From: Manihot esculenta
Taxonomy: Eukaryota > Streptophyta > Magnoliopsida > Malpighiales > Euphorbiaceae
Reading direction: 5' to 3'
Assembly (NCBI RefSeq): GCF_001659605.2
Contig: NC_035161.2
Coordinates: 3,924,265 to 3,988,264, forward strand
DNA length: 64,000 bases
Within the stretch, counting starts at the first letter, position 1; each line of letters opens with the position of its first letter. The notes beneath the pieces were generated by a model. That model was not told where the DNA came from, did not search any database, and worked only from the letters and a program-made list of their open reading frames with translations. The translations under genes and the position numbers were made by a program. Positions 2,064 through 56,215 of this stretch are shown in pieces.

Positions 2064-3951
2064 TCTCTATTTCTTTCTGGGCTATTCTCTGAATCATTGG
2101 AATGCAGGCTCCAAGCACATTGGAAGCTCCACGTCCATCAGTGAAGAAGTGTCTCTCTTATTCTGATGCATTGTTGCCAAAATGGGACAGCAAGGAGTTA
2201 AGCCGCTGCGATAGAACAAGAAAAACTATGTTAAGGCAGTCTATGAGGCAATCATCAACTGCACCTTTCACTCTAGTGCATGAAATTCGCAAACTAGAAC
2301 ATCTTCAGGAGCAACTTGGAGAAGAAGCTAACCGAGCTCTAGAAGTACTACAAAAGGAGGTTGCTTGTCATAGACTAGGTAACCAAGATGCAGCTGAGAC
2401 GATTGCTAAACTACAAGCAGAAATAAGAGAAATGCGATCCATTCAACCAGTTTGTAAGGAAGTGGAAATTGGTTGTGTTGTAGCTCCTAATAGAAGTGTC
2501 AGTGCCAACCTCAAGGAGGAGATAACGAGACTTCATTCACAGGGCAGCACTATTGCAAATCTTGAAGAGCAATTGGAAAATGTTCAGAAGTCTATAGACA
2601 AACTAGTAATGTCTCTTCCAAGCAATAATCCACAATCAAACTCGGAAGCAACTTCGAAAGCTAGGAATCAACCAAAGAAGAAAAAGATACTTCCTTTGAC
2701 ATCAAGCAATGGTGCCAACCGGCAAAACTTTATAAGGTCTCCTTGCTCACCACTATCAACTTCTAAGCAAATTTTGGAAAATGATATTGAAAACAAAGCT
2801 CCAGGGAATGAAGACATTATTATGTACTCTGAGACCCAGACAGAGTCTGAGAAAGAAACTCCTACTAAGAGTGAAGAAGCTGGAGATGTGTCATCGAGGG
2901 AAGGCACTCCAGTCTATCAACGTTCTAATTCAGTTAACATGAAGAAAATGCAGAAGATGTTTCAGAATGCAGCAGAGGAAAATGTAAGGAGCATAAGAGC
3001 ATATGTAACGGAACTGAAGGAACGTGTTGCCAAATTGCAATACCAAAAGCAGTTACTTGTTTGCCAGGTATAATATTTGAGTCCATTTAAATGTCTAGTT
3101 TGTTTCTTAGCATTTGTATTATAACTTTATCTCCTATCTTAATTTTCCTTCCATTGATTGAGAAATTAATTCCATCTGCATTTTAGGTCCTTGAGCTGGA
3201 AGCAAATGAAGCAGCTGGCTATAATCTTGAGGATGAAGATAACCTAAATGAACCAGAACCTCAAGTTTCCTGGCAAGTAACTTTTAGGGAGCAAAGGCAG
3301 CAGATCATTGAATTATGGGATTTATGCTATGTATCCATCATCCATAGGACACAGTTTTATTTGTTATTCAAGGGGGACCCTGCTGATCAAATTTACATGG
3401 AAGTTGAGCTTAGGCGCTTGACTTGGTTGCAGCAGCATTTGGCAGAAATGGGCAATGCAAGCCCAGCTCGTATTGGAGATGAGCCTACAATTTCTCTGTC
3501 ATCAAGGTTCTTTTTCTCTCTTTCTGTAGCTTAAGAACTCACAAGACATGGCAAATTGCTTCATGATGAATATAAACCTAAACAAACTTTGTTTATCTCT
3601 TAATTTTCTTGTTGATTTTGCAGTATTAGAGCATTGAAACGTGAAAGGGAGTTTCTGGCAAAGAGGTTGACCTCTCGTTTAACTGTTGAAGAAAGGGATA
3701 CATTGTACATGAAGTGGGATGTTCCACTTGAGGGGAAACAGAGGAAGTTGCAGTTTGTGAACAAACTGTGGACGAATCCTCATGATGCGAGGCATGTGGA
3801 GGAAAGTGCTGAAATAGTGGCAAAGCTTGTTGGTTTCTGTGAAGGAGGAAACATGTCAAAGGAGATGTTTGAGCTCAATCTTGCCTTGCCAACAGATAAG
3901 AGACCATGGATTATGGGCTGGAACCCAATTTCAAACCTATTGCATTTGTGA
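1..3951 (+). CDS. NACK1/HIK-like: Kinesin-7, NACK1/HINKEL type (3' part, start outside window)
   Basis: Plus-end microtubule motor that recruits the MAPKKK cascade to the phragmoplast midzone during cytokinesis (family knowledge). Exons read by frame and GT-AG: 1-74, 224-340, 434-515, 596-663, 758-817, 897-1021, 1421-1619, 1726-1836, 1927-2019, 2108-3067, 3187-3506, 3624-3951, giving 844 visible residues and stop TGA at 3949. The window begins inside the P-loop (SGKTYTM). Switch I (NDTSSRSH) spans exon 4, switch II (VDLAGSE) starts exon 6, and [16 protein letters not shown] is in exon 7. Coiled coil follows (exons 8-10), then the C-terminal DUF3490 region (exons 11-12, [19 protein letters not shown]). 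The combination [14 protein letters not shown] plus the stretch around [17 protein letters not shown] fits NACK1/HINKEL better than the meiotic paralogue TETRASPORE, which is inference. No frame breaks were seen. The catalytic N-terminus and promoter lie upstream of the window. Confidence 0.95.
2025..2058. repeat. (CT)17 microsatellite in kinesin intron
   Basis: Uninterrupted CT dinucleotide run inside the short intron 2020-2107 of the kinesin gene, between the donor GGTCTACT and the acceptor AATGCAG. It may serve as part of the polypyrimidine tract, and its length is probably polymorphic. Confidence 0.9.
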
Positions 3952-5815: not shown

Positions 5816-8800
5816 TTTCGATGTGAACTTGTAATGAAAGCAAGCAAGAAAGAATTTGTAGTCATTCATTTGTCTCATCTCTACTAAAGTGTAGTGCAAA
5901 TAAATAGTTGAGCTTTAGCCTAATGCAAGTCTTCATCCTTCCACCAACATTTTCAACTAATACAACAAAAATAAAATCAATGATTCAAGGAAAAAAGATA
6001 GATTCAAAATTAGCTTTTCACACTTAGTGTGAATAGATGAAAATGGGTATCAAATATTCAATTTCTTTTCATTTTTAATTTTTTTTAAAAAATTTAAAAA
6101 TTATCTAGTTTATTCCTATTTTAAATTCACTCAATTTAAACATCTTTATATTTTATAAAATTCAACTATTTAATCCAACTATTAAATTAGTTAATTTATT
6201 TTACTTTTCATCCACGAACTAAATAGTAGATAAATATTTAAAATTACGGGTAAATAATATATATCAATAAAATTATAAAAATTAAATTAAAATATGAAAA
6301 AATTATTTTTTAGTTTTTATAATATGAGTAAATTTACTAATAGGTCTCTCGATTTTGAAGTTTTTGATATTTTAAAAAGTCTATTAATTAGTCCATCTAT
6401 TAATTTTAGTCGTTAAGTATTTTATTATTTAATTTATATAATTTTAAAAAATTAATTAGTTGATTCTCATATGTTTTTAAAAAATTTACTAATTAACGAA
6501 AATTAATTGTTAAAAATATTTTAATATATTTTTTAAAATTGAAATTACTGTAAAAGAATAATTAAAAATTTTAATTTTATAAAATATACAAATGTTTTGA
6601 ATTGACAATTTTAAAATATAAAAACTAAAAATTTAGATATTTAATAGTAATTTTTTCAATAATTTAATGTCCAATGATCTAAAAATGAATGTGGACCCAA
6701 CCCTCCACCCAAGCATGAGCATGAAGATGAAGAGATTAATGTGTGCAGAAAGAGAAAGTGGCCTCTCTAATCATTTATAAATAAATATATTATTAAATTT
6801 TCTTCATGTTCTTAATAATCATATAGCCCATTCTCATGCCTCAATATTTACATTAAATATTAATTTATTATTATTATTTTTTTAAAGTATGGCATATTTA
6901 TAAATTTTTGGATAAATTATTTTTATATTTTTAATATTTAATAATTTAATTTTTATATTTTTCACTCCATTATGTATTTAATTCTTTAAATGAATTGAAA
7001 ATTAATTGTTAATAAATAATTAAAGATAATATTTAGGGTGAAAATTTCATGTATATATACATGTATAATTGGAAATGATATAAGCGTTGAAAGTGGGACC
7101 AAGTGCGTGAAAGTGGGACCGAGTGCATGAAATAGAAGCATGGGAGAGAATGATGAAGCAAATCCCCATTCTCTATTGAAGTTGTGATTTTGGATTTGGG
7201 GCTTTCGGTGATTTTATATCGCTTCTTTCTGTAGCCACATGTTAATTCCTCATCATTACTTTGACTTCTTTTTTATATTTTCCAAAAAAATATTTTATTT
7301 TATTAATAATTATTATTTAATAAACTATTAAAAAATTTATTACTAATAAAATATAGAAATTTTTTAGTTTAATTTTAATTAAAATACATAATACTGTCCA
7401 ATTAAAATACATAAACGGTAAAGAGCATAAAATTATGATTATTTATGGTATAATTGCTAAGATGAGCAAAATCCACAATTTATTTTTTTTTATTTTTTTA
7501 ATAGTAAAAAAATTTTTTTTTGAATATTTATTTTAACAGAATAATCTTAGTTAATTGTTGATTGTGGAAGTTAACTTAAATTAAAAGAAATATATTATTA
7601 TAAATATTAAAACAATAATAACTAAATTGTTATAAATTATTAAAATTAAAATAATTAAATTATTATAAAAAATTGAAATTTAAAAAAATTAGATTATTGT
7701 AATTTAATTTTAATAAAATAACTATTTTATTAATAAAATAAAATTTTAAAAGTAAAATTATTTTATATTAAAATAACTCTAAAATATAATATTATAAAAA
7801 AATTAATAGAAAAAAATCTATACTTCTGACTTTATTATAATTATATTCTGTATTTTTTATTAATTAAAATTTTATTTTTTAAAATTTTTTTAATTTTACT
7901 CCACTATTATTTATACCGTTAAAAATTAATAAAATTATCACGTCATTAACTAACTTAATACAACGTCAACAAATTTTAAAATAAAATTATTAATAATTTA
8001 AAAGTTCAGAATAAAATTATAATAAAACTAAAAGTATAGATATTTTTGATAAATTATTTATTTTATTATTTTTTTAAATTCACTTTAAATATTAATATAA
8101 TTTAAAAAATTAATAAAATTAATATTACATTTGATAGTTAAAAAATAATTAAAAAATATCTTAAAAATTATTTTATTATTTTTAATATTTTTAAATTGAA
8201 TTATATTAAATATTATTTTAAATTATTTTTTAATATTTTATAACTAATATATTTAATAAAATTATTTTGTTAATGATAGTTTTAAAAGAAATGTCAAATA
8301 GTAAGATTATATGCTTTATTTCAAATCAAAAATTTTGTAAAGATTTAATTTTATTGATTTTTTTTAACTATTTATTTATTTGAAATAAAAATTTTATTAT
8401 TTTTTTAATTTAAAATTTTTTATATTAAAAAATGAAAATTACATAATTTTACAAACAAACCAACAAATAATGAACCAAAAAGGAAGATTTATAAAAATGT
8501 TTTTGGTACTAATACTACTATTAATAAATTGATCTTATATTTTACAAAAATTTATTAAAATATTTTTAAGTTTTGATTTTGTTAGACATTTTAGTTAGTC
8601 TATTTTTTTTAAATTATCACTTTTTACATTTTCGTTCACTTATTTTTCTAAAAAAATATATATTTAAAATGTAGATCTTTTATAAAATATATATTTAAAA
8701 AAATATATATTTAATTAAATCTTTTATATTATTTACAAGATAAAATATAATTGGCCAAATATGAGGATGATATGGAACAGTTAGACTGCTATTAAGATTA

Positions 8801-11089: not shown

Positions 11090-11510
11090 AAGGCTATAAG
11101 GTAATTGCTAGGCTATTCGAGCATGGGTCCTGCACATAATCCGGGCGTTGGTCCGTGAAAATAAATTTATAAATGGACATAAGGCAATTATCAGGCCATT
11201 TGGATATGGGTCCCGCATATAATTCGGACGTTGGTCAAGGGAAACATATTCATAAAACGGCCACAAGGCCATTCGAGCATGGGTCTCACATAATAAGGCA
11301 TCTCATGCCAGGCCACAAGGCAATCGCCAGGCCATAATTCGAGTGTTGATTCGCAAAAGCACATTCAAAAAATGGCCGCATGGCCATCCGGGCATGGGTC
11401 CCGCATATACTCCGGGCACAGGTCCTGCACATAATTCGAGCATTGGTCCACGGAAATAAATTCATAAAAGGTCGCAAGACCATTCGGGCATGGGTCCCTC
11501 ACAATAAGGC
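11090..11510 (+). repeat. Tandem-repeat array 1 of gypsy relic
   Basis: Diverged units built on 'CATTCGAGCATGGGTCC.GCACATAAT.CGGGCGTTGGTCC' followed by 'AAATAAATTCATAAA..GGCCACAAGGC'. About four units of roughly 60-100 bp are recognisable by eye. Short open frames across it are a by-product of the repeat. Confidence 0.65.
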
Positions 11511-11910
11511 ATTTGATGTCAGGTTACAAGGCAGGTATACACCAAGCCAGAAGACCGAGTGTTAGTTCCGAGAAGTTTCTAAGACATTTAATGCCAGGCC
11601 ACAATACAAGTACACACCAGGTGAGAAGACCGAGTGTTAGTCCCGAAAAGTTTCTAAGGCATCTTTATGCCAGGCCAAAAGACGGGTACATGCCAATTTA
11701 AAAGACCAGGTGTTAGTCTCGAGAAGTTTCTAAGGTATTTGATGTCAGACCACAAGGCGAGTACACACCAAGCCAGGAGACTGGGTATTAGTCCCGACTC
11801 ACAAGAAGTTTCTAAGGCATCTTCATGCCAGGCCGAAAGGTGAGTATAAGTCAGGCCAACTACTGGGTGTTAGGCTTACTTTACAAAAAGTTTCAAAGGC
11901 ATTTGATGTC
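11508..11910 (+). repeat. Tandem-repeat array 2 of gypsy relic
   Basis: Units of about 72 bp: 'AAGGCATTTGATGCCAGG', 'CCACAAGGCGAGTACACACC', 'AAGCCAGGAGACCGAGTGTT', 'AGTCCCGAGAAGTTTCT'. Five copies are visible, beginning near 11508, 11580, 11657, 11733 and 11816. A boundary shared with array 1 (GGCATNTGATGNCAGG) suggests one array grew out of the other. Confidence 0.7.
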
Positions 11911-12981: not shown

Positions 12982-12986
12982 CTGAC
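12982..12986 (+). repeat. Target-site duplication CTGAC, left
   Basis: CTGAC directly precedes the LTR start TGATCAAG. The same five bases follow the 3' LTR end at 19721-19725. Removing the element and one TSD gives GATTTTTTGCTGACTAAAAT, which aligns with the uninterrupted copy A. Confidence 0.93.
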
Positions 12987-14511
12987 TGATCAAGCATAAT
13001 TTAGCCACATTTTTATCATAATTATTATTGCTTATTTACACATTTTTTAGTTTAATTTATGGTTTTTATCTTGTTTTTACAGAAAAGGAAGAAATTGCAA
13101 AATTGGAGAAAAAGTGCAGAAAATTTACAAAAGGGTGATTTGCCCAGTGATTTGCCCAGTGATTTGCCCAAAAATCTGCTCCAGTCACTACCCAGATCAA
13201 AGCTAAAGCAGAAACCCGGAGACAACAGACAGCAGTGATATGGGCAGTGATTTGCCCAAGAAACTCGAAGATCACTGGCCAAATCACTCGTAGAAGACAT
13301 AGAGTACTGACTCACAGAAAAGCGATCTGCCCAGTGATTTGCCCAATCACTTGAGGAAACTGGTCAAAGCACCGGGCAAATCACTCTGACAGCAGAAAAT
13401 TACAGCAGAGCGGGAAAATGGGCAGCAAACAGAAATCCGAATTTTCAGAAGTCCAAATCCAATCCAATCACTTCCAACACAAATCCAAGAGCCACGAAAG
13501 AGCTTCTCATCCAAGGAAATCCAATTGCAATTAAATTCAACATCAAAAGAGGAGTCCAACACCAAATCAAAAAGGGATTTCAAAACCCTAGAGAATTCTT
13601 CAGCTATAAAAGGGGAGTCTCAAAACCAGCAAAGGCATCTTCTGATCAGGAACTCAGCACCTTCTCCCTCGCCAGAAACTCTTCAGCTGTTCTTTCTTTT
13701 TCTTTCTTTTCATCTTTTGTGTATTTTAGTCACCATGAGTGGCTAAACTCATTATTTTCTAGTTGAAGTTGAGAATATTCAGATTTGTGATGAATTGGGA
13801 GGTTTAATACTCCATTGTTGAACTCTTGTTTGTTTCAATATTTATGCAATCTGATCTTTTCTATAAATATTACTTTGCTTTTAGAATCAATAAGGGCCCA
13901 TTGCTTTTAATTTGCTTAAGTAATATTGTTTGAATGATTTAGGTCCGTAATTGCTTAGGTTGTTCAAATACACATTTAATCAGGTTGCATAATCTAAACT
14001 TGACCACGCGGTTGGCAAGGATAGAATTGGGTTTCTCTAAGTCTTAATGCAATCAACAGTTGTTCGATGCTATAATGCCCCAAGGACGTTCCTTGGCAAC
14101 TTGTTGATTAGTGTTTGATTAGCGAACGTTTCCTAATCAAACTAGAACTAAGGAGGAATTTGGATTGTGAGAAGCGTCTTCCACAACCAAAACTAATTTA
14201 TTGAAATCAAATAGGAGTCTTTAATAATCAATGATCAATTCTGAACAAACTGAATTAGACTCACACTTCAGCTAGAATCTCTTTCTCATTGGAATTCCTT
14301 TTCAATTAAATTATTGTTCTCTTTTGCTTTTAGATTTTAACTCATCAAAACAAACCCCCATCTTTTACTTATTTGTTATTACTTGCCTTAGTCATTATTA
14401 GGAAGATACTTGGTGTCAATTCCCTGTGGTTCGACCCTATTGCCACTATCTACAAATTTATTTGTTGATTGATAATAGGTTATTTTTGACGGCTTCGACA
14501 ACCGCCTATCA
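12987..14511 (+). repeat. 5' LTR
   Basis: 1525 bp, TGATCAAGC...CCTATCA. It contains the GATTTGCCC motif in several copies, including three in tandem at 13137-13172 (the 3' LTR has two). A TATA-like box CTATAAAAGG lies at about 13602-13611, followed by a pyrimidine-rich leader, so transcription probably starts near 13635. The rest (13750-14511) would be the R/U5 part. Confidence 0.93.
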
Positions 14512-14516
14512 AAAAT

Positions 14517-14534
14517 TGGCGCCGTTGCCGGGGA
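14517..14534 (+). promoter_or_regulatory. Primer binding site, tRNA-Asp(GTC)
   Basis: TGGCGCCGTTGCCGGGGA lies 5 bp after the LTR end. It is an 18-nt perfect complement to the 3' end (with CCA) of plant tRNA-Asp(GUC) as I remember that tRNA. Use of this primer is common in Athila/Tat-group elements. Confidence 0.88.
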
Positions 14535-14563
14535 ATTGATTTAAACTAACATATTTTCCTTTT

Positions 14564-14650
14564 ATGACCAGGGCTGATCGTAAAGAAGCTATTCTTTACG
14601 ATCCAGAAATTGAACGCACTGCTAAGACCTTACAAGCATGGCTACGGTAA
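14564..14650 (+). CDS. Short first gag ORF ending at a splice-donor-like site
   Basis: ATG at 14564 encodes 28 residues starting MTRADRKEAILYDPEIERT and ends at TAA 14648. The N-terminal motif 'DPEIERT' is how gag begins in Athila/Tat-like elements. The stop falls inside CTACG|GTAAGTATG, an excellent plant 5' splice site. The downstream ORF (14638-17049) is in another frame. Either splicing joins this start to later sequence, or a small indel broke gag. An acceptor cannot be chosen by eye. Confidence 0.5.
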   Translation: MTRADRKEAILYDPEIERTAKTLQAWLR

Positions 14651-17049
14651 GTATGTCTTTTCTCTCTTCTCAAATTTCTGAACTAACCTCTATTGTGAGA
14701 AATTATAGTCAAGCTCGACAAGTTCAACAACTTCAACAAGCACATGCATTTGAAGGATTCTATGGACAACCAAGACATAATCCCTACCTTGACACATACA
14801 ATACAGGTTGGGGAGACAATCTGAGCTATGGCTATGCTAGGACAGACCACTACCATGACTACCAAAGAGATCTGCAATATAATCCATGTTGGGGGGACAA
14901 TCCGAATTATGGCTATGCAAGGGCTGACTACTACCAAAACTATCAAGCCCAAGCAACACCTCAAAACTCCAATATGGAACTTGAAGAGATGGTGAGGAAA
15001 TTGGAAATTTCTGGGAAAATTCTCCAACAGCAAGTGGATCAAGCGGTCAACTCAGTGGACGCATACATATTAAGAAGAGAGGAAGAGCTTCAAGATCTAT
15101 GGGACGATGACGAGGAAACAGACCAAGCTGCTGAGTCTGCGGCACAAATCACCACTGCAGAACCTGCTGCTGTCCAAAAATCAGCACCAACCGAAGCTCC
15201 TGCTGCAAAAACAGCACCTGCTGTCCAAAAATCAGCAACCTCAGAAATTGCCCCCACTGAACCAGAAGTTGCTGCACTTGCTGAAATTGCCAAAATTACA
15301 CCAGAAATTACAGAATTTGCTGCTGTCCAAGTTGCTGAAAATAGAGACAGCAACTGCTGTCAAACTGCCACAACCACTGCTGCCCGCAAATCAGCACCAG
15401 CCGAAGTACCTGGTACATCCCCTGCTGCTGTCCATAAACCAGCAACTGCTGGAAGTGCCCCAACTGAACCAAAATCTGCTGAAATTTCTGAAACAAACCA
15501 GCCCCCTGGACAATCCAGCACAACCAGATTGCTAGCACAGGTAAGTTGTTGTTTGCCCTCCCAAACTGAGATAAATCCAAGACAAAATGCTAGTGCCATC
15601 ACATTGAGGATTGGAAAGGAATTGCAAGACAATAGGGCTGAAAAATTGCAAAAACAGGCCATGGAAGAAATTCTGCCAGAAAGTGATCAGGGCAGTGATT
15701 TGCCCAATTCACTAGTAGAAACTGACCCGATCGTTGGGCAAACTGAGCTGTCCAGTAGTGATTTGCCCAAATCACTAGAAAAGGCAGAGAGTGATCTGCC
15801 CAAATCAACAGACCAGGCAGAATCCATTCAAAGGCAGAAACAGCAACTTATGGAGAAATTCAAGGTACCTCCTCCCTTCCCAAAGAGATTTGCAAGATCC
15901 CAAAAGGAGAAAGAGGAAAAAGAGATATTGGAGACACTTCGCAAAGTGGAAATCAACATACCCCTACTTGATGCTATCAAACAAATACCAAGGTATGCTA
16001 AATTTCTCAAAGAGCTATGCACCAATAGGAGGAAACTTGCTGAACATAAAAAGGTAAGTGTGGGGGAGTGTGTCTCAGCTGTCATTCAAAGGAAACTTCC
16101 CACCAAATGCAAGGATAGAGGAATGTTTGCCATTTCATGCAAAATAGGCAACATAGGAATAAAGAAGGCCATGTGTGACCTTGGAGCTTCAATAAATGTC
16201 ATGCCTCTTTCTATTTTTAACTTGTTGAATGCAGGTACACTCAAGGGCACCAGCATTATGATCCAATTGGCTGATCGATCTGTTGTCTATCCCAAGGGAG
16301 TGCTAGAAGATGTGTTGGTGCAAGTGGACCAATTAGTCTTTCCAGCAGATTTTTATGTTATTGACATGGAGGAAGACAAGGGCAAAATCACCTCTGATAT
16401 CCTACTTGGAAGACCATTCTTAAGTACAGCAAGAACTAAAATTGATGTGCATGATGGCACATTGACCATGGAGTTTGAAGGGGAAATTATAAAATTTAAT
16501 GTTTATGATGCCATGAAATTCCCCAATGATGTTTCTCCTGTTTATGGCCTTGATATAATTGATGATTTAAGTCAAGAAACTTTTGATTTTGATCAAGAAA
16601 ATTTACTTTATGATGGTCTTTGCAGGAAAGGAGAAGTGGACAGCAACATCACTGAAGCAGAAAAAACAGCAGACTGCTGTAACTTGCTGGATGTGGGTGA
16701 TTTGCCCGGTGATTTGCCCAGAATACCAGAAAATCTGCTCAAATCACAGCTCAAATCAGACAGTAAGCAGACAGAAAATGCACCAGAACTGAAACCCTTG
16801 CCTAATCACCTCAAATATGCCTACTTGGGAGCTGGAAATACACTTCCAGTAATTATTTCTAACCAGCTCAGCCAAGAAGAAGAGGAAAAGCTCTTTGATG
16901 TGTTGAGGAAGCACAAGAAAGCAATTGGGTGGACCTTGGAGGACATAAAAGGCACCTCAAGACCATTCGATGGAGGCTCAAGACAGGATGCAGCACATGG
17001 AAGACATGTTGCAGCTGCTGGTTCAACATTTTCTGCCCCAGCACCGTGA
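14638..17049 (+). CDS. Truncated gag-protease polyprotein of non-autonomous LTR element
   Basis: One open frame of 803 aa. Residues 30-105 contain a duplicated Tyr/Asn-rich stretch (WGDNLSYGYAR / WGDNPNYGYAR). Residues 150-300 are an Ala/Pro/Glu-rich low-complexity linker. Residues about 350-400 repeat SDLP(N/K)S. A retropepsin-like domain spans about 470-640: CDLGASINVMP with the catalytic Asp at 514, then LADRSVVYPKGVLEDVLVQV and DILLGRPFLSTA. Residues about 728-772 match the lead-in to reverse transcriptase (KHKKAIGWTLEDIKG), after which the reading becomes unrelated and stops. The usual gag capsid core is not recognisable, and all of RT, RNase H and integrase are missing. The first true start may be the short ORF at 14564. 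Whether any protein is made is unknown. Confidence 0.8.
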   Translation: MATVSMSFLSSQISELTSIVRNYSQARQVQQLQQAHAFEGFYGQPRHNPYLDTYNTGWGDNLSYGYARTDHYHDYQRDLQYNPCWGDNPNYGYARADYYQNYQAQATPQNSNMELEEMVRKLEISGKILQQQVDQAVNSVDAYILRREEELQDLWDDDEETDQAAESAAQITTAEPAAVQKSAPTEAPAAKTAPAVQKSATSEIAPTEPEVAALAEIAKITPEITEFAAVQVAENRDSNCCQTATTTAARKSAPAEVPGTSPAAVHKPATAGSAPTEPKSAEISETNQPPGQSSTTRLLAQVSCCLPSQTEINPRQNASAITLRIGKELQDNRAEKLQKQAMEEILPESDQGSDLPNSLVETDPIVGQTELSSSDLPKSLEKAESDLPKSTDQAESIQRQKQQLMEKFKVPPPFPKRFARSQKEKEEKEILETLRKVEINIPLLDAIKQIPRYAKFLKELCTNRRKLAEHKKVSVGECVSAVIQRKLPTKCKDRGMFAISCKIGNIGIKKAMCDLGASINVMPLSIFNLLNAGTLKGTSIMIQLADRSVVYPKGVLEDVLVQVDQLVFPADFYVIDMEEDKGKITSDILLGRPFLSTARTKIDVHDGTLTMEFEGEIIKFNVYDAMKFPNDVSPVYGLDIIDDLSQETFDFDQENLLYDGLCRKGEVDSNITEAEKTADCCNLLDVGDLPGDLPRIPENLLKSQLKSDSKQTENAPELKPLPNHLKYAYLGAGNTLPVIISNQLSQEEEEKLFDVLRKHKKAIGWTLEDIKGTSRPFDGGSRQDAAHGRHVAAAGSTFSAPAP

Positions 17050-17630
17050 CAGATAGCGATTTGCCCAGTGATTTGCCCAGTGCTTGCCCAAGTCACTGGT
17101 CAAATCACTCACAGGCTAGGAAGTCCCTTTCCCTTTTCTCCTTCATTTATCTATATATATATTCAAACATTGAGGACAATATTTGGGATAGGTGTGGGGG
17201 TACTGGAGAGTATTTATTCACTGATCACACCATCTTTTGATTTCTATTTGTTTCTTTTTGTTTCTTTGTGTTTCTTTTTGCATTATTCTTACCCTTTTTG
17301 CACACACCAGAATTTTTTTTCACTTTTTGCACACACACACAGAATTTTGTCTTAGCTTTTGCTCTACTCAACATAGATAACAAGGTTAAAAGAGTCTCCT
17401 TATCTCATGACCCCATTGATTTGCCACCCCTTTAAGCCTAAATTGAATCACTCACAGTATGTTACCTTCACTTAGGGAGTTTTTCTCTTGAATTGAATCC
17501 TTAAATGTGCTAAGGTCAAGAGAAATAAAAATACAAATGCATGCAAACATAAAGCTAGTGTAACTCCCTATGAGTTGATTTGCCCAAACTATCATAAAAA
17601 ATCAGCACAAAGCACAAATCATAAACCTGT

Positions 17631-17880
17631 TCCAATGGTCTAAAACTATGAACTGTGCCTAAAAGCCACTTGGAGAAGTTACTGACTGAGTAACCGGGGG
17701 TGTATCACCCATGTACACAATCGCGTAAAAAGGTCAGTAATTTTTTCAAGCAAATAAGTTTCGATGGTCTAGACTATGAACAAAGCTAGTAGCCACTTGA
17801 ACAAGTGACTAACTGAGTAACCGGGGGTGTATCACCCATGTACACAATCGCGTAAAAAGGTTAGTGACTTTTTCAGGCAA
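17631..17880 (+). repeat. 125-bp tandem duplication with invariant hairpin core
   Basis: Two units (about 17631-17757 and 17758-17880) start with (A/T)GGTCTA.(A)ACTATGAAC and end in TTTTTCA(A/G)GCAA. Flanks differ at many positions, but a core of over 45 bp beginning ACTGAGTAACCGGGGGTGTA and ending TCGCGTAAAAAGGT is identical in both. The core holds the inverted repeat GGGTG-TAT-CACCC and a second overlapping one, GTGTA...TACAC. Confidence 0.85.
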
Positions 17881-18192
17881 GGATAAGAATAAGTGCTGCT
17901 AAAAATAAAAATAAAAATAAAAAGAAAGAGAGAAGAAAATGGGCAAATCACTCCTAGGGGTTGCATTAAAACTAACATAAAGGAATAAGCATGATTGAAC
18001 CAAAAACCTTTCTCTTGACCATGGTAGGTGAAAGGAAACAAGGAAAGGAGAGGATGACCTTAGTGCATGTACTCTATACTGTGATACTTCAATTTAGGAG
18101 TCTAGGGGGGCTGATTAAGTGGAACTTAGGCTCTAAGGAAAAAGGGGGCTTGATTGGCTAAGTTATTTGTTGCTTGAGGACAAGCAAGAAGC

Positions 18193-18207
18193 TAGGTGTG
18201 GGGTATT
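18193..18207 (+). promoter_or_regulatory. Polypurine tract region of the LTR element
   Basis: The sequence TAGGTGTGGGGTATT immediately precedes the 3' LTR. A G-rich 'GGTGTGGGG' tract is the usual plus-strand primer in this group. A similar GGTGTGGGGG occurs at 17191-17200 and could be a relic of an internal tract. Confidence 0.7.
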
Positions 18208-19720
18208 TGATCAAGCATAATTTAGCCACATTTTTATCATAATTATTATTGCTTATTTACACATTTTTTAGTTTAATTTATGGTTTTTATCTTATTTTTA
18301 CAGAAAAGGAAGAAATTGCAAAATTGGAGAAAAAGTGCAGAAAATTTACAAAAGGGTGATTTGCCCAGTGATTTGCCCAAAAATCTGCTCCAGTCACTGC
18401 CCAGATCAAAGCTAAAGCAGAAACCCGGAGACAACAGACAGCAGTGATATGGGCAGTGATTTGCCCAAGAAACTCGAAGATCACTGGCCAAATCACTCGT
18501 AGAAGACATAGAGTACTGACTCACAGAAAAGCGATCTGCCCAGTGATTTGCCCAATCACTTGAGGAAACTGGTCAAAGCACCGGGCAAATCACTCTGACA
18601 GCAGAAAATTACAACAGAGCGGGAAAATGGGCAGCAAACAGAAATCCGAATTTTCAGAAGTCCAAATCCAATCCAATCACTTCCAACACAAATCCAAGAG
18701 CCACGAAAGAGCTTCTCATCCAAGGAAATCCAATTGCAATTAAATTCAACATCAAAAGAGGAGTCCAACACCAAATCAAAAAGGGATTTCAAAACCCTAG
18801 AGAATTCTTCAGCTATAAAAGGGGAGTCTCAAAACCAGCAAAGGCATCTTCTGATCAGGAACTCAGCACCTTCTCCCTCGCCAGAAACTCTTCAGCTGTT
18901 CTTTCTTTTTCTTTCTTTTCATCTTTTGTGTATTTTAGTCACCATGAGTGGCTAAACTCATTATTTTCTAGTTGAAGTTGAGAATATTCAGATTTGTGAT
19001 GAATTGGGAGGTTTAATACTCCATTGTTGAACTCTTGTTTGTTTCAATATTTATGCAATCTGATCTTTTCTATAAATATTACTTTGCTTTTAGAATCAAT
19101 AAGGGCCCATTGCTTTTAATTTGCTTAAGTAATATTGTTTGAATGATTTAGGTCCGTAATTGCTTAGGTTGTTCAAATACACATTTAATCAGGTTGCATA
19201 ATCTAAACTTGACCACGCGGTTGGCAAGGATAGAATTGGGTTTCTCTAAGTCTTAATGCAATCAACAGTTGTTCGATGCTATAATGCCCCAAGGACGTTC
19301 CTTGGCAACTTGTTGATTAGTGTTTGATTAGCGAACGTTTCCTAATCAAACTAGAACTAAGGAGGAATTTGGATTGTGAGAAGCGTCTTCCACAACCAAA
19401 ACTAATTTATTGAAATCAAATAGGAGTCTTTAATAATCAATGATCAATTCTGAACAAACTGAATTAGACTCACACTTCAGCTAGAATCTCTTTCTCATTG
19501 GAATTCCTTTTCAATTAAATTATTGTTCTCTTTTGCTTTTAGATTTTAACTCATCAAAACAAACCCCCATCTTTTACTTATTTGTTATTACTGGCCTTAG
19601 TCATTATTAGGAAGATACTTGGTGTCAATTCCCTGTGGTTCGACCCTATTGCCACTATCTACAAATTTATTTGTTGATTGATAATAGGTTATTTTTTACG
19701 GCTTCGACAACCGCCTATCA
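18208..19720 (+). repeat. 3' LTR
   Basis: 1513 bp, the same as the 5' LTR except five substitutions seen by eye and one fewer 12-bp TGATTTGCCCAG unit. It ends CCTATCA, directly followed by the CTGAC duplication. Confidence 0.93.
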
Positions 19721-19830
19721 CTGACTAAAATCAAACTAAATCAAAATAATTAAAAAATTTAAAATAAAAATAAAACTAAACGAAAAAAAATTTCAAATTA
19801 ATTTAATTCAATTAAACTGCATTCTGATTA
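19721..19830 (+). repeat. TSD CTGAC and right fragment of repeat copy B
   Basis: CTGAC (19721-19725), then AT-rich sequence matching the right third of copy A (AAATCAAACTAAATCAAAATAATT... ATTTAATTCAATTAAAC). It completes the repeat broken at 9667 and 12981. Confidence 0.7.
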
Positions 19831-54130: not shown

Positions 54131-54959
54131 GAATAATTCCCAATCTTACTGCCAAATTTCTAATTTACTTCAATCCTGTTTTTCGGGTAATAGACCTGCA
54201 AAACAACAAAAAATACTGAGTAGTTTGATGGACAAAATCTCCAATGCCCAAGTCAATAAAGGATCCAAGATAAATTTAGAGAAAAAATTAGATAATAAGA
54301 TAGATCACACACCTAAAAATTGCCCGTATATATAGTTTATTAATAGTTTTATCCTAATATGATTCAGAATATGTTATTAAGTTTTCCTTCCCTAACCCTT
54401 ATTTAGGGTTATAGTCTAAAATGGGCTATAAAATAGCCCGTTCGGATACTTGGATTATGGGTCTCTTTCTATTAGATTTTTGACCTTTATTCTTCTATTG
54501 GCCTCTATATCAGTATCATTAGTCCCCTTTCTATTCAACGAATCTTTAGGTTCATTAGTGCCTCTATCATTGCGTTGGTACATTGGGAAAATGAATAGAC
54601 ATTCCCTTACTCTATTTGTCCACTTTCTATACAAAGTGGTGTATGAGTTCATTTGCCCCACACCCCCTCTCAACTTTCTTCTTTCTAGCATTTGTCTCTC
54701 CAGAAAGCTTATTTATCCGATCACTGAAATTTGGAGTTTTCGTTGATATTTGGTGGTCTTTTTCAGTTTTTGGCCTCCCCTGTGGGTTTTCGGAGTTTCA
54801 GCCTTCTTTGTGGGTTTTTGGGTTCTCGGCCTACTTTGTGGGTTTTACCTCTTGTGGATTTTTAGGTTTTTGACCTCTCTTGTGAGTTTTTGTCCTCCCC
54901 TATAAGTTTTTGAGTTTTCAACCTCCTTTGTGGTTTTTCGACTACCTTTGTGTGTTTTC

Positions 54960-55495
54960 GGCCTTTCTTATGGGTTAAAAAAGGTTTTCAGCTTTTTTGT
55001 TCATAGGAAAGGTTTTCGGTCCCTTGCTAAGTTAAAAAGGGTTTTTGACTTTTTATTTGGTAGAAAGGTTTTCGATCCCTTATTGGGTTGAAAAAGATTT
55101 TCAACTTTTAACTTGGTAGGAAAGGTTTCTGGTCCCTTGCTAAGTTGAAAAAGGTTTCAACTTTTCATTTGGTAGGAAATATTTCAGGTCTCTTGCTAGT
55201 TTGAAAAGGGTTTTCAGCTTTTCATTTAGTAGGAAATATTTTCGGTCCCTTATTGGGTTGAAAAGGGTTTTTGGCTTTTCACTTGGTAGGAAAGGTTTTC
55301 GGTCTATTATTGGGTTGAAAAGGGTTTCAGCTTTTCATTTGGTAGGAAAGGTTTTCGATCTGTTGTTGGGTTGAAAGGGTTTCAGCTTTTCATTTGGTAG
55401 GAAAGGTTTATGGTCCCTTGCTAGGTTGAAAGGGTTTTCAGCTTTCTCTTAGTAGGAAATGTTTCCGATCCCTTGTTGAGTTTAAAAGACTTTCT
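54960..55495 (-). repeat. Tandem array: about 60-bp units
   Basis: About nine units on the plus strand read 'GGTTTTCGGTCCCTTGCTAG', 'GTTGAAAAGGGTTTTCAGCT', 'TTTCATTTGGTAGGAAA'. A shorter precursor-like unit 'GGTTTTCGGCCTCCCTTGTG' occupies 54760-54960. Confidence 0.8.
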
Positions 55496-55499
55496 CTTG

Positions 55500-56215
55500 G
55501 TCATGGTACCATAGTACTATAGTACTATGCTACCATGATTCCATGCTGCCATGGTATCAGTTGCTGATGAGGGCGCTCATAATGCCTAAGAGGCAATTAG
55601 TTTGGCTGGCTTATTTTTTCTTGTATTGGTGACTTGAAGTTGACAAGATCTGGTATTATGCTATCATAGTACCATGATGCTATGGCATTAGTTGCTGATG
55701 AGGGTACTCATAACACCTAAAGGTCTATTGGTTGGCTTACTTATTTCCCCACTTCATTAGCCGCTTGACAGTGATGAGATCTGGTACCATGCTGCCATGG
55801 TATCAAACTACTATGATATCAATTACTGATGAGAGCGCTCATAATGCCTAAGAGGCAATTAGTTTAGCTGACTTATTTTCTCCTGCATTAGCAACTTGAC
55901 ATTGATAAGATATGGTACCATACTGCCATGGTATCAGTTGCTGATGAGAGCGCTCATAATGCTTAAGGGCGGATTGGTTGACTGACTTATTTCCCCCCTG
56001 CATTCACACTTGACGTTGATAAGATCTGGTGTTATCCTGCCATGGTATCAGTTGCTGATGAGGGCGCTCATAATGCCCAAGGAGCAATTGGTTTGGTTGA
56101 TTTATTCCTCCTACATTGGCGGCTTGATGTTGATAAGATCTGATACTATGTTGCCATGGTATTCGTTGTTTATGAGGGCGCTCATAATGCTTAAGGGGAA
56201 ATTGGTTGCCTGACA
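55500..56215 (-). repeat. Tandem array: about 130-150-bp units
   Basis: Five to six units with the anchor 'CCATGGTATCAGTTGCTGAT', 'GAGGGCGCTCATAATGCC.A', 'AGAGGCAATTAGTTTGGCTG' and 'TTGACGTTGATAAGATCTGG'. Anchors are seen near 55553, 55685, 55799, 55927, 56041 and 56156. A run of palindromic CATGGTACCATAGTACTATA words starts the array (55503). Confidence 0.8.

Follow-up and report, generated by a model that had tools for sequence, protein, structure and literature searches.

A dyad-forming 12-nucleotide repeat occurs in terminal repeats, untranslated regions and protein linkers of a cassava Athila-type retrotransposon family

A short nucleotide word recurs throughout a retrotransposon of cassava (Manihot esculenta) and is a real, structured repeat that is family-wide in every copy we examined. 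We analyzed a window of 64,000 bases (NCBI RefSeq assembly GCF_001659605.2, contig NC_035161.2, positions 3,924,265 to 3,988,264), in which the motif-bearing element, a young, non-autonomous, Athila-type Ty3 long terminal repeat (LTR) retrotransposon, occupies positions 12987-19720. Judging from sequence comparison, we interpret the motif as a putative cis-regulatory repeat specific to one Athila lineage, similar in layout to that of Sireviruses and also carried in protein linkers under a coding filter, and we give this reading a probability of about one half.

The motif is far more frequent than expected by chance. An earlier note on this DNA had reported about 20 or more copies over LTRs, untranslated region (UTR)-like and coding parts, and had proposed a count against shuffled sequence as a test that could refute it. 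We found 22 exact matches to GATYTGCCC in the window (19 forward, 3 reverse), all of them within 13137-18591, inside the retrotransposon, compared with a mean of 0.66 and a maximum of 4 in 100 dinucleotide shuffles. When a single LTR was counted together with the internal part (12986-18206), there were 16 matches (shuffle mean 0.10, maximum 2; 500 shuffles), and the internal part alone contained nine (mean 0.06, maximum 3). The positions given in the note agree with ours within about 3 bases (15697 for its "near 15694", 17941 for its 17940). When up to three mismatches were allowed, the full 12-base unit was only modestly above chance across the window (71 places vs a shuffle mean of 50.8 and maximum of 69), and the signal therefore resides in good matches.

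The repeated unit is the 12-mer AGTGATTTGCCC, frequently arranged in tandem. Bases 1-9 of the unit form the dyad half-site AGTGATTTG, which has 12 exact copies in 12986-18206 and none in the remaining 57,260 bases. Forward and reverse units together build dyads of the form AGTGATTTG-CC-CAAATCACT, one of which is perfect in the window, and longer inverted-repeat modules in which two forward half-sites are combined with two reverse ones, some of them in degenerate form (Table 1). Such modules or dyads recur in U3, in the linker between gag and protease (PR), in the 3' UTR and in the spacer between integrase (IN) and ORF3, the third open reading frame (ORF), of relatives.

The motif is also abundant elsewhere in the cassava genome. 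A search of 640 Mb for the motif dimer at up to three mismatches returned 2461 forward and 2637 reverse places (about 5,100), and the reversed dimer, searched as a control in the same 640 Mb, returned 0. All 30 inspected dimer places, each exact and on contig C1, fall in sequence homologous to the window element's family; one of them (L005) is the window itself and three (L011-L013) lie within the reference copy L062/L063, which leaves 26 informative places, some overlapping. A further 29 copies (L033-L061), chosen by protease and not by the motif, likewise all carry it; together with the window they are the best-scoring 30 loci of 150 scored among 4,445 candidates. Neither outcome that the earlier note named as refuting, a frequency no higher than in shuffles or absence from all other copies of the family, was observed. 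Outside the family, viral contigs gave 94 stretches fitting the pattern, none confirmed, and no dimer. Prokaryote contigs gave one match, in Pseudanabaena cinerea (L001:7863-7885), which we took as coincidence within a short local run; the surrounding stretch (L001:7820-7895) is a brief tandem run of units nearly equal to the motif.

The host element is a recent insertion that lacks part of its coding capacity. Its LTRs are separated by only five substitutions and one 12-base block, which argues for a young insertion, and it shows the TG...CA termini and CTGAC target-site duplication considered for Athila membership. The gag core and the remainder of pol are absent, making this copy non-autonomous, and it is also without the ATHILA ORF. 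The 803-amino-acid ORF matched no Pfam family at E 0.1; its best protein match by E-value is from Mucuna pruriens, and the most similar protein is M. esculenta P0004, with 89% identity in a multiple alignment and 68% in a local alignment that takes in the linker.

Two full-length relatives, L062 (with L063) and L064, hold gag, reverse transcriptase (RT), RNase H (RH), integrase and ORF3 together with the motif, so the helper-type element that the earlier note proposed to look for does share it. In L062, Pfam domains follow Ty3 order, with Retrotrans_gag in the first ORF and then RVT_1, RNase H, H2C2 and rve. The ORF after integrase matches ATHILA (PF03078; E 1.8e-9 in L062, 2.2e-10 in L064), which we take, beyond the Pfam name, as a marker of Athila elements; the ORF3 of that group is regarded as "envelope-like".

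Exact copies in the full-length relative L062/L063 fall into a few compartments: U3 (6 in 610 nt), linker 1 between gag and PR (2 in 190 nt), linker 2 between PR and RT (2 in 185 nt), the RH-IN linker (2 in 130 nt), the IN-ORF3 spacer (5 in 393 nt; in L062, four forward and one reverse), ORF3 (1 in 1731 nt) and the 3' UTR (2 in 1292 nt); we note that linker limits were set after the motif positions had been seen. No exact copy occurs in L062/L063 in the LTR downstream of U3 or in gag, PR, RT-RH or IN. Pfam coordinates place the RH-IN copies downstream of the RNase H domain and ahead of the integrase zinc-binding domain. The window element shows the same distribution, with conserved domain blocks free of exact copies, and the U3 cluster stands upstream of TATAAAA in both (13605 in the window, 980 in L062).

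Table 1. Features of the motif-bearing element in the window, with one feature of a sister-family copy (L079)
Feature	Position	Strand	Remarks
Target-site copy, 5'	12982..12986	.	CTGAC, matching 19721-19725
5' LTR, TG...CA, 1525 nt	12987..14511	+	98.9% identity with 18208-19720
Three tandem 12-nt units in U3	13134..13169	+	one unit fewer in 3' LTR
U3 inverted-repeat module	13234..13288	+	two forward half-sites, then two reverse
U3 inverted-repeat module AGCGATCTGCCCAGTGATTTGCCC ... GGGCAAATCACT	13321..13385	+	two forward and two reverse half-sites
TATAAAA box	13605..13611	+	U3 motif cluster about 220 bases upstream of box
Primer-binding-site-like (PBS-like) word TGGCGCCGTTGCCGGGG	14517..14533	+	also in 8 of 10 sister copies
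ORF, 803 aa	14638..17049	+	gag end, protease, RT start
Linker 1 (gag-PR)	15682..15809	+	SDLP encoded by three exact forward units; dyad perfect at 15757-15776
Linker 2 (PR-RT)	16696..16760	+	two exact forward units = GDLPGDLP; degenerate reverse half-sites besides
3' UTR inverted-repeat module	17055..17109	+	two forward and two reverse half-sites
Single forward unit GTTGATTTGCCC, 3' UTR	17574..17585	+	sole copy with sister-family counterpart
Single reverse unit, 3' UTR	17941..17952	-	exact match
3' LTR	18208..19720	+	U3 with 5 forward + 1 reverse exact motif copies
Target-site copy, 3'	19721..19725	.	CTGAC
Sister-family dyad GATTTGCCCAAATC, 3' UTR	L079 177-185	-	equivalent place to window 17574-17585

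Within coding sequence, the orientation and frame of the motif are uniform. The ORFs of the window, L062 and L064 together contain 19 exact copies, representing eight homologous sites; every one is forward and read in the (S/G/T)DLP frame, with none reverse. Of the other strand and frame choices, one, on the forward strand, would introduce a stop, and four are stop-free. Linker 2 ranges from 170 to 335 in length in frame-preserving steps in 30 of the other 31 copies, the exception being L047; linker 1 limits were fixed by offset in this comparison, so its length is uninformative. From the uniform strand and frame and the in-frame variation of linker 2, we infer that the proteins filter where and how copies can be placed. 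The earlier note had read SDLPNS, SDLPKS and GDLPGDLP in the ORF, as our translation does, and had argued for spread at the DNA or RNA level, not at the protein level. Its positive half holds, with the same word in coding and noncoding sequence, a dense U3 cluster, both strands used outside ORFs and changes by whole 12-nt units, but its exclusion of the protein level is too strong given this coding pattern.

Peptide arrays of related form were sought among other proteins. Of the proteins of the 120 listed relatives, those displayed contain no tandem (S/G)DLP array, and P0011 has three SDLP-like words. Linker 1 used as a probe gave no match, and neither did the antisense LTR ORF used as a protein probe (E 0.001). 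ORF3 of L062 carries, ahead of its ATHILA domain, a (S/T)DxP tetrapeptide array of largely 12-nt period (L062:8402-8653), and the exact motif copy of ORF3 ends this decayed array.

A sister Athila family (P0002 type) places the array within the window element's lineage. In the 5' parts of all 10 sister loci, which span 5.4-5.8 kb from about 1.5 kb ahead of gag to past the protease, neither an exact motif nor an exact half-site was found, and the PBS-like word TGGCGCCGTTGCCGGGG follows the LTR in 8 of the 10 copies. The 3' part, seen in one copy (L079), has one exact GATTTGCCC within GTTGATTTGCCCAAATCA ahead of its 3' LTR. This dyad lies 52 bases before a block common with the window 3' UTR, and GTTGATTTGCCC at 17574 in the window lies 32 bases before the same block. 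From this one sister copy, the single 3' UTR dyad may predate the family split and may be the ancestor of the array, and the array itself is a novelty of the window element's family. Upstream of its TATA box, the sister family carries in U3 a different and weaker repeated word, CACGTGGACC-like (L069-L078). Its best 9-mer exceeded all 60 shuffles in five of eight U3 stretches and its best 10-mer in one of eight; L074 and L077 were dropped for want of a TATA match, and the loci show just the last part of U3. All CACGTGGACC copies at up to one mismatch in the tested loci lie within U3, and the CACGTG inside the word is what we take to be G-box-like. Family-specific repeated words may be common in Ty3 elements of the cassava genome, and among the few families examined, solely the window family's word occurs in ORF linkers.

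Copy number changes by whole units. The 12-base block between the window LTRs is exactly one motif unit, with one fewer in the 3' LTR. Two loci that we read as the LTR pair of another copy, L018 and L021 (C1:29758773 and C1:29764103), likewise differ by one 12-nt unit (283 vs 271); L011 and L013 are of equal length, and L028 was dropped as a duplicate of L026. In an alignment of the 3' UTR module from 27 copies (L053 and L057, with a different layout, were left out), a 10-nt gap is common to 15 copies and L045 has an 11-nt gap. Both gaps leave the compact dyad AGTGATTTGCCCAAATCAC, and the L002 spacer has an 11-nt gap with the same outcome. Because TTGCCC words repeat at the break points, slippage is the likely cause of these gaps.

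Some motif sites vary less than their surroundings. Across 32 sequences, linker motif sites were less diverse than linker sites overall (0.028 vs 0.052, site permutation 0.012), also at third codon positions (0.021 vs 0.051, permutation 0.046), an effect that is strong in linker 1 (0.005 vs 0.048) and weak in linker 2 (0.045 vs 0.067). The UTR unit 17067-17078 was invariant across 27 copies, against a mean diversity of 0.12 for the UTR. In the spacer alignment most rows were picked by an exact dimer, so that dimer conservation there is no evidence.

The cis-regulatory reading would join these observations as follows. The functional unit would probably be a dyad-symmetric, putative protein-binding site, AGTGATTTG-CC-CAAATCACT. 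The U3 cluster, which precedes the TATA box by about 220 bases, would form an enhancer-like array; additional copies lie in the spacer before ORF3 and in the 3' UTR, where the single dyad is a possible ancestral copy. The differences in length suggest that 12-nt units are gained and lost by slippage, and the units could have moved elsewhere in the element during reverse transcription, through strand transfer or gene conversion. In ORFs, the surviving copies would be in-frame insertions between domains that are read as a hydrophilic (S/G/T)DLP linker peptide, consistent with the pattern of strand and frame.

Several results weigh against this reading. The copies outside U3 lie in the transcribed and partly coding part of the element, which is unusual for an enhancer. 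UTR units 17055-17066 (0.11) and 17098-17109 (0.10) are near the UTR mean, and unit 17086-17097 varies at 0.29. Linker motif sites (0.028) are no more conserved than the whole protease (0.027), whose third positions are more variable (0.055), and the diversity tests are weak, as they treat sites as independent, involve few lineages and use sites defined from the window. We also considered and rejected the copying of larger cassettes from the LTR into internal sequence. Unmasked, three internal clusters scored 60, 78.5 and 68 against the LTR, above all 200 shuffles (maxima 44, 42.5 and 34), and two single UTR copies did not exceed theirs. With the motif masked, the scores of the three clusters and the two single copies were reached by 110, 9, 291, 80 and 75 shuffles, respectively, out of 300, and the low value for linker 2 (9/300) stems from an A-rich stretch of 19 nt that lies outside the cluster. 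Internal similarity to the LTR is thus non-significant once the motif is masked, and copying from the LTR is unsupported.

Slippage without function could account for copy number alone, and the main rival, which we consider possible but rather unlikely, is a neutral 12-nt minisatellite, multiplied by slippage and template switching and kept where it is nearly harmless. It would explain the variation by 12-nt and 75-nt units, the deletions of some 10-11 nt flanked by TTGCCC repeats in the UTR module and the L002 spacer, the freedom of conserved blocks in the window and L062 from exact copies, and the decayed array in ORF3. It fits less well with dyads on both strands and the same inverted module in several compartments, with lower diversity at some motif sites, third codon positions included, with placement upstream of the TATA box and with the sister family's dyad at a matching position of its 3' UTR. 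An RNA-level signal, with hairpins in genomic RNA serving packaging, dimerization or strand transfer or acting as small-RNA sources, seems unlikely to us. The U3 cluster, IN-ORF3 spacer and UTR module do fold more stably than shuffles (z = -6.07, -4.89 and -2.85, respectively), and 110-nt windows with at least three motif matches average z -2.0 in the window element (13 of 128) and -1.7 in L062 (17 of 248), against -0.3 without the motif. However, the most stable 110-nt window of either element is motif-free, exact linker copies are forward only, and any cluster of DNA dyads folds well as RNA, so that folding cannot separate an RNA signal from a DNA site.

Two further possibilities involve a protein of the element itself. 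The least probable is a VANC-like target array, bound by ORF3 or another element-encoded DNA-binding protein as an anti-silencing mark. A dense family-specific motif with unit turnover, nearly absent from the sister family, would suit such an array, full-length copies do encode an additional ATHILA-family ORF3 with a tandem peptide array, and VANC21, which recognizes a dense nine-base motif (PMC5735166), is a precedent. Against this, ORF3 has no named DNA-binding domain in Pfam, matching besides ATHILA just PF20167 ("putative plant transposon protein") below the curated cut-off, and VANC motifs are mainly noncoding and in one orientation, unlike the cassava motif. It is also improbable, in our estimation, that the motif is a family address tag read by element-encoded ORF3 or Gag, by which helpers and deletion derivatives would recognize each other for anti-silencing or packaging.

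Other repeats were seen in these sequences. The 3' UTR of the window element has a motif-free direct repeat of 95 nt (17659-17753 and 17786-17880, 89% alike) with a very stable predicted fold (110-nt window at 17667, z -4.8), and the gag-PR linker has alanine/proline-rich imperfect repeats at 15154-15490 (D6, D7, D10), mostly absent from aligned relatives. Outside the element, self-comparison showed diverged tandem-like repeats at 11505-11908 and 54954-56214. The sister locus L079 (C2:22514500-22523499, minus strand) includes part of a further Ty3-type element. At 2724-3640 and 6069-7000, this element has a third palindromic word, TTCGGCCGCCGAA-like (GCCGCCGAA 13 times, GCGGCCGAA 11 times), in LTR-like sequence that flanks integrase-like ORFs.

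The cassava elements form a Ty3/Athila family with a Sirevirus-like box architecture, built on an unrelated word and carried through coding linkers. With thousands of places, both full-length and deletion copies, and a sister family in which at most a single dyad was seen, it is a good system for asking what such boxes are: enhancers, RNA structures, address tags or neutral repeats. Should it be cis-regulatory, the motif would help explain the co-expression of helper-dependent copies with their helpers.

A literature search under four spellings of the motif, covering mostly open-access texts, returned no paper with its letters. Among the papers listed by searches on the wider subject (8 of 21 and 15 of 148 in two of them), no title or abstract start describes the motif or a repeated dyad in Athila, and to our knowledge no such dyad has been described for Athila elements. 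The claim of the earlier note that no such motif had been described therefore stands for the word itself but not for its kind, which has counterparts in the LTR palindromes of Sireviruses (PMC2829016) and the arrays of VANDAL transposons (PMC5735166).

Compared with known systems, the cassava family resembles Athila in its ORF order, its ATHILA ORF3 (PF03078) and its PBS-like word. The motif also recalls the 13-bp element of Tto1, a short cis-regulatory sequence from the LTR of a plant retrotransposon that is reportedly repeated, confined to the LTR and tested in stress response. The closer parallel is with the RM boxes of Sireviruses (Ty1/copia), which Bousios et al. (2010, PMC2829016) describe as a palindromic, element-specific word. 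Its 8-32 copies gather ahead of the TATA box in the LTR and a second time upstream of ENV, with a few at the ENV start, and 12 of 13 words have a CGG-CCG core (the exception being Tnd-1). The cassava motif is likewise palindromic and element-specific with many LTR copies upstream of TATA, and its IN-ORF3 spacer copies parallel the RM copies upstream of ENV. It differs in belonging to a Ty3/Athila element, with IN after RT-RH, in its core (TTG-CC-CAA) and in having exact copies also in the gag-PR, PR-RT and RH-IN linkers and the 3' UTR. VANC targets on VANDAL transposons (PMC5735166, PMC10398659) are dense, family-specific short motifs with turnover of repeat units, and the cassava motif is similarly dense, short, characteristic of one family and turning over in units. 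VANDALs are DNA transposons with a known element-encoded binder and motifs that are mainly noncoding and in one orientation, whereas the cassava motif also occurs in ORFs and on both strands.

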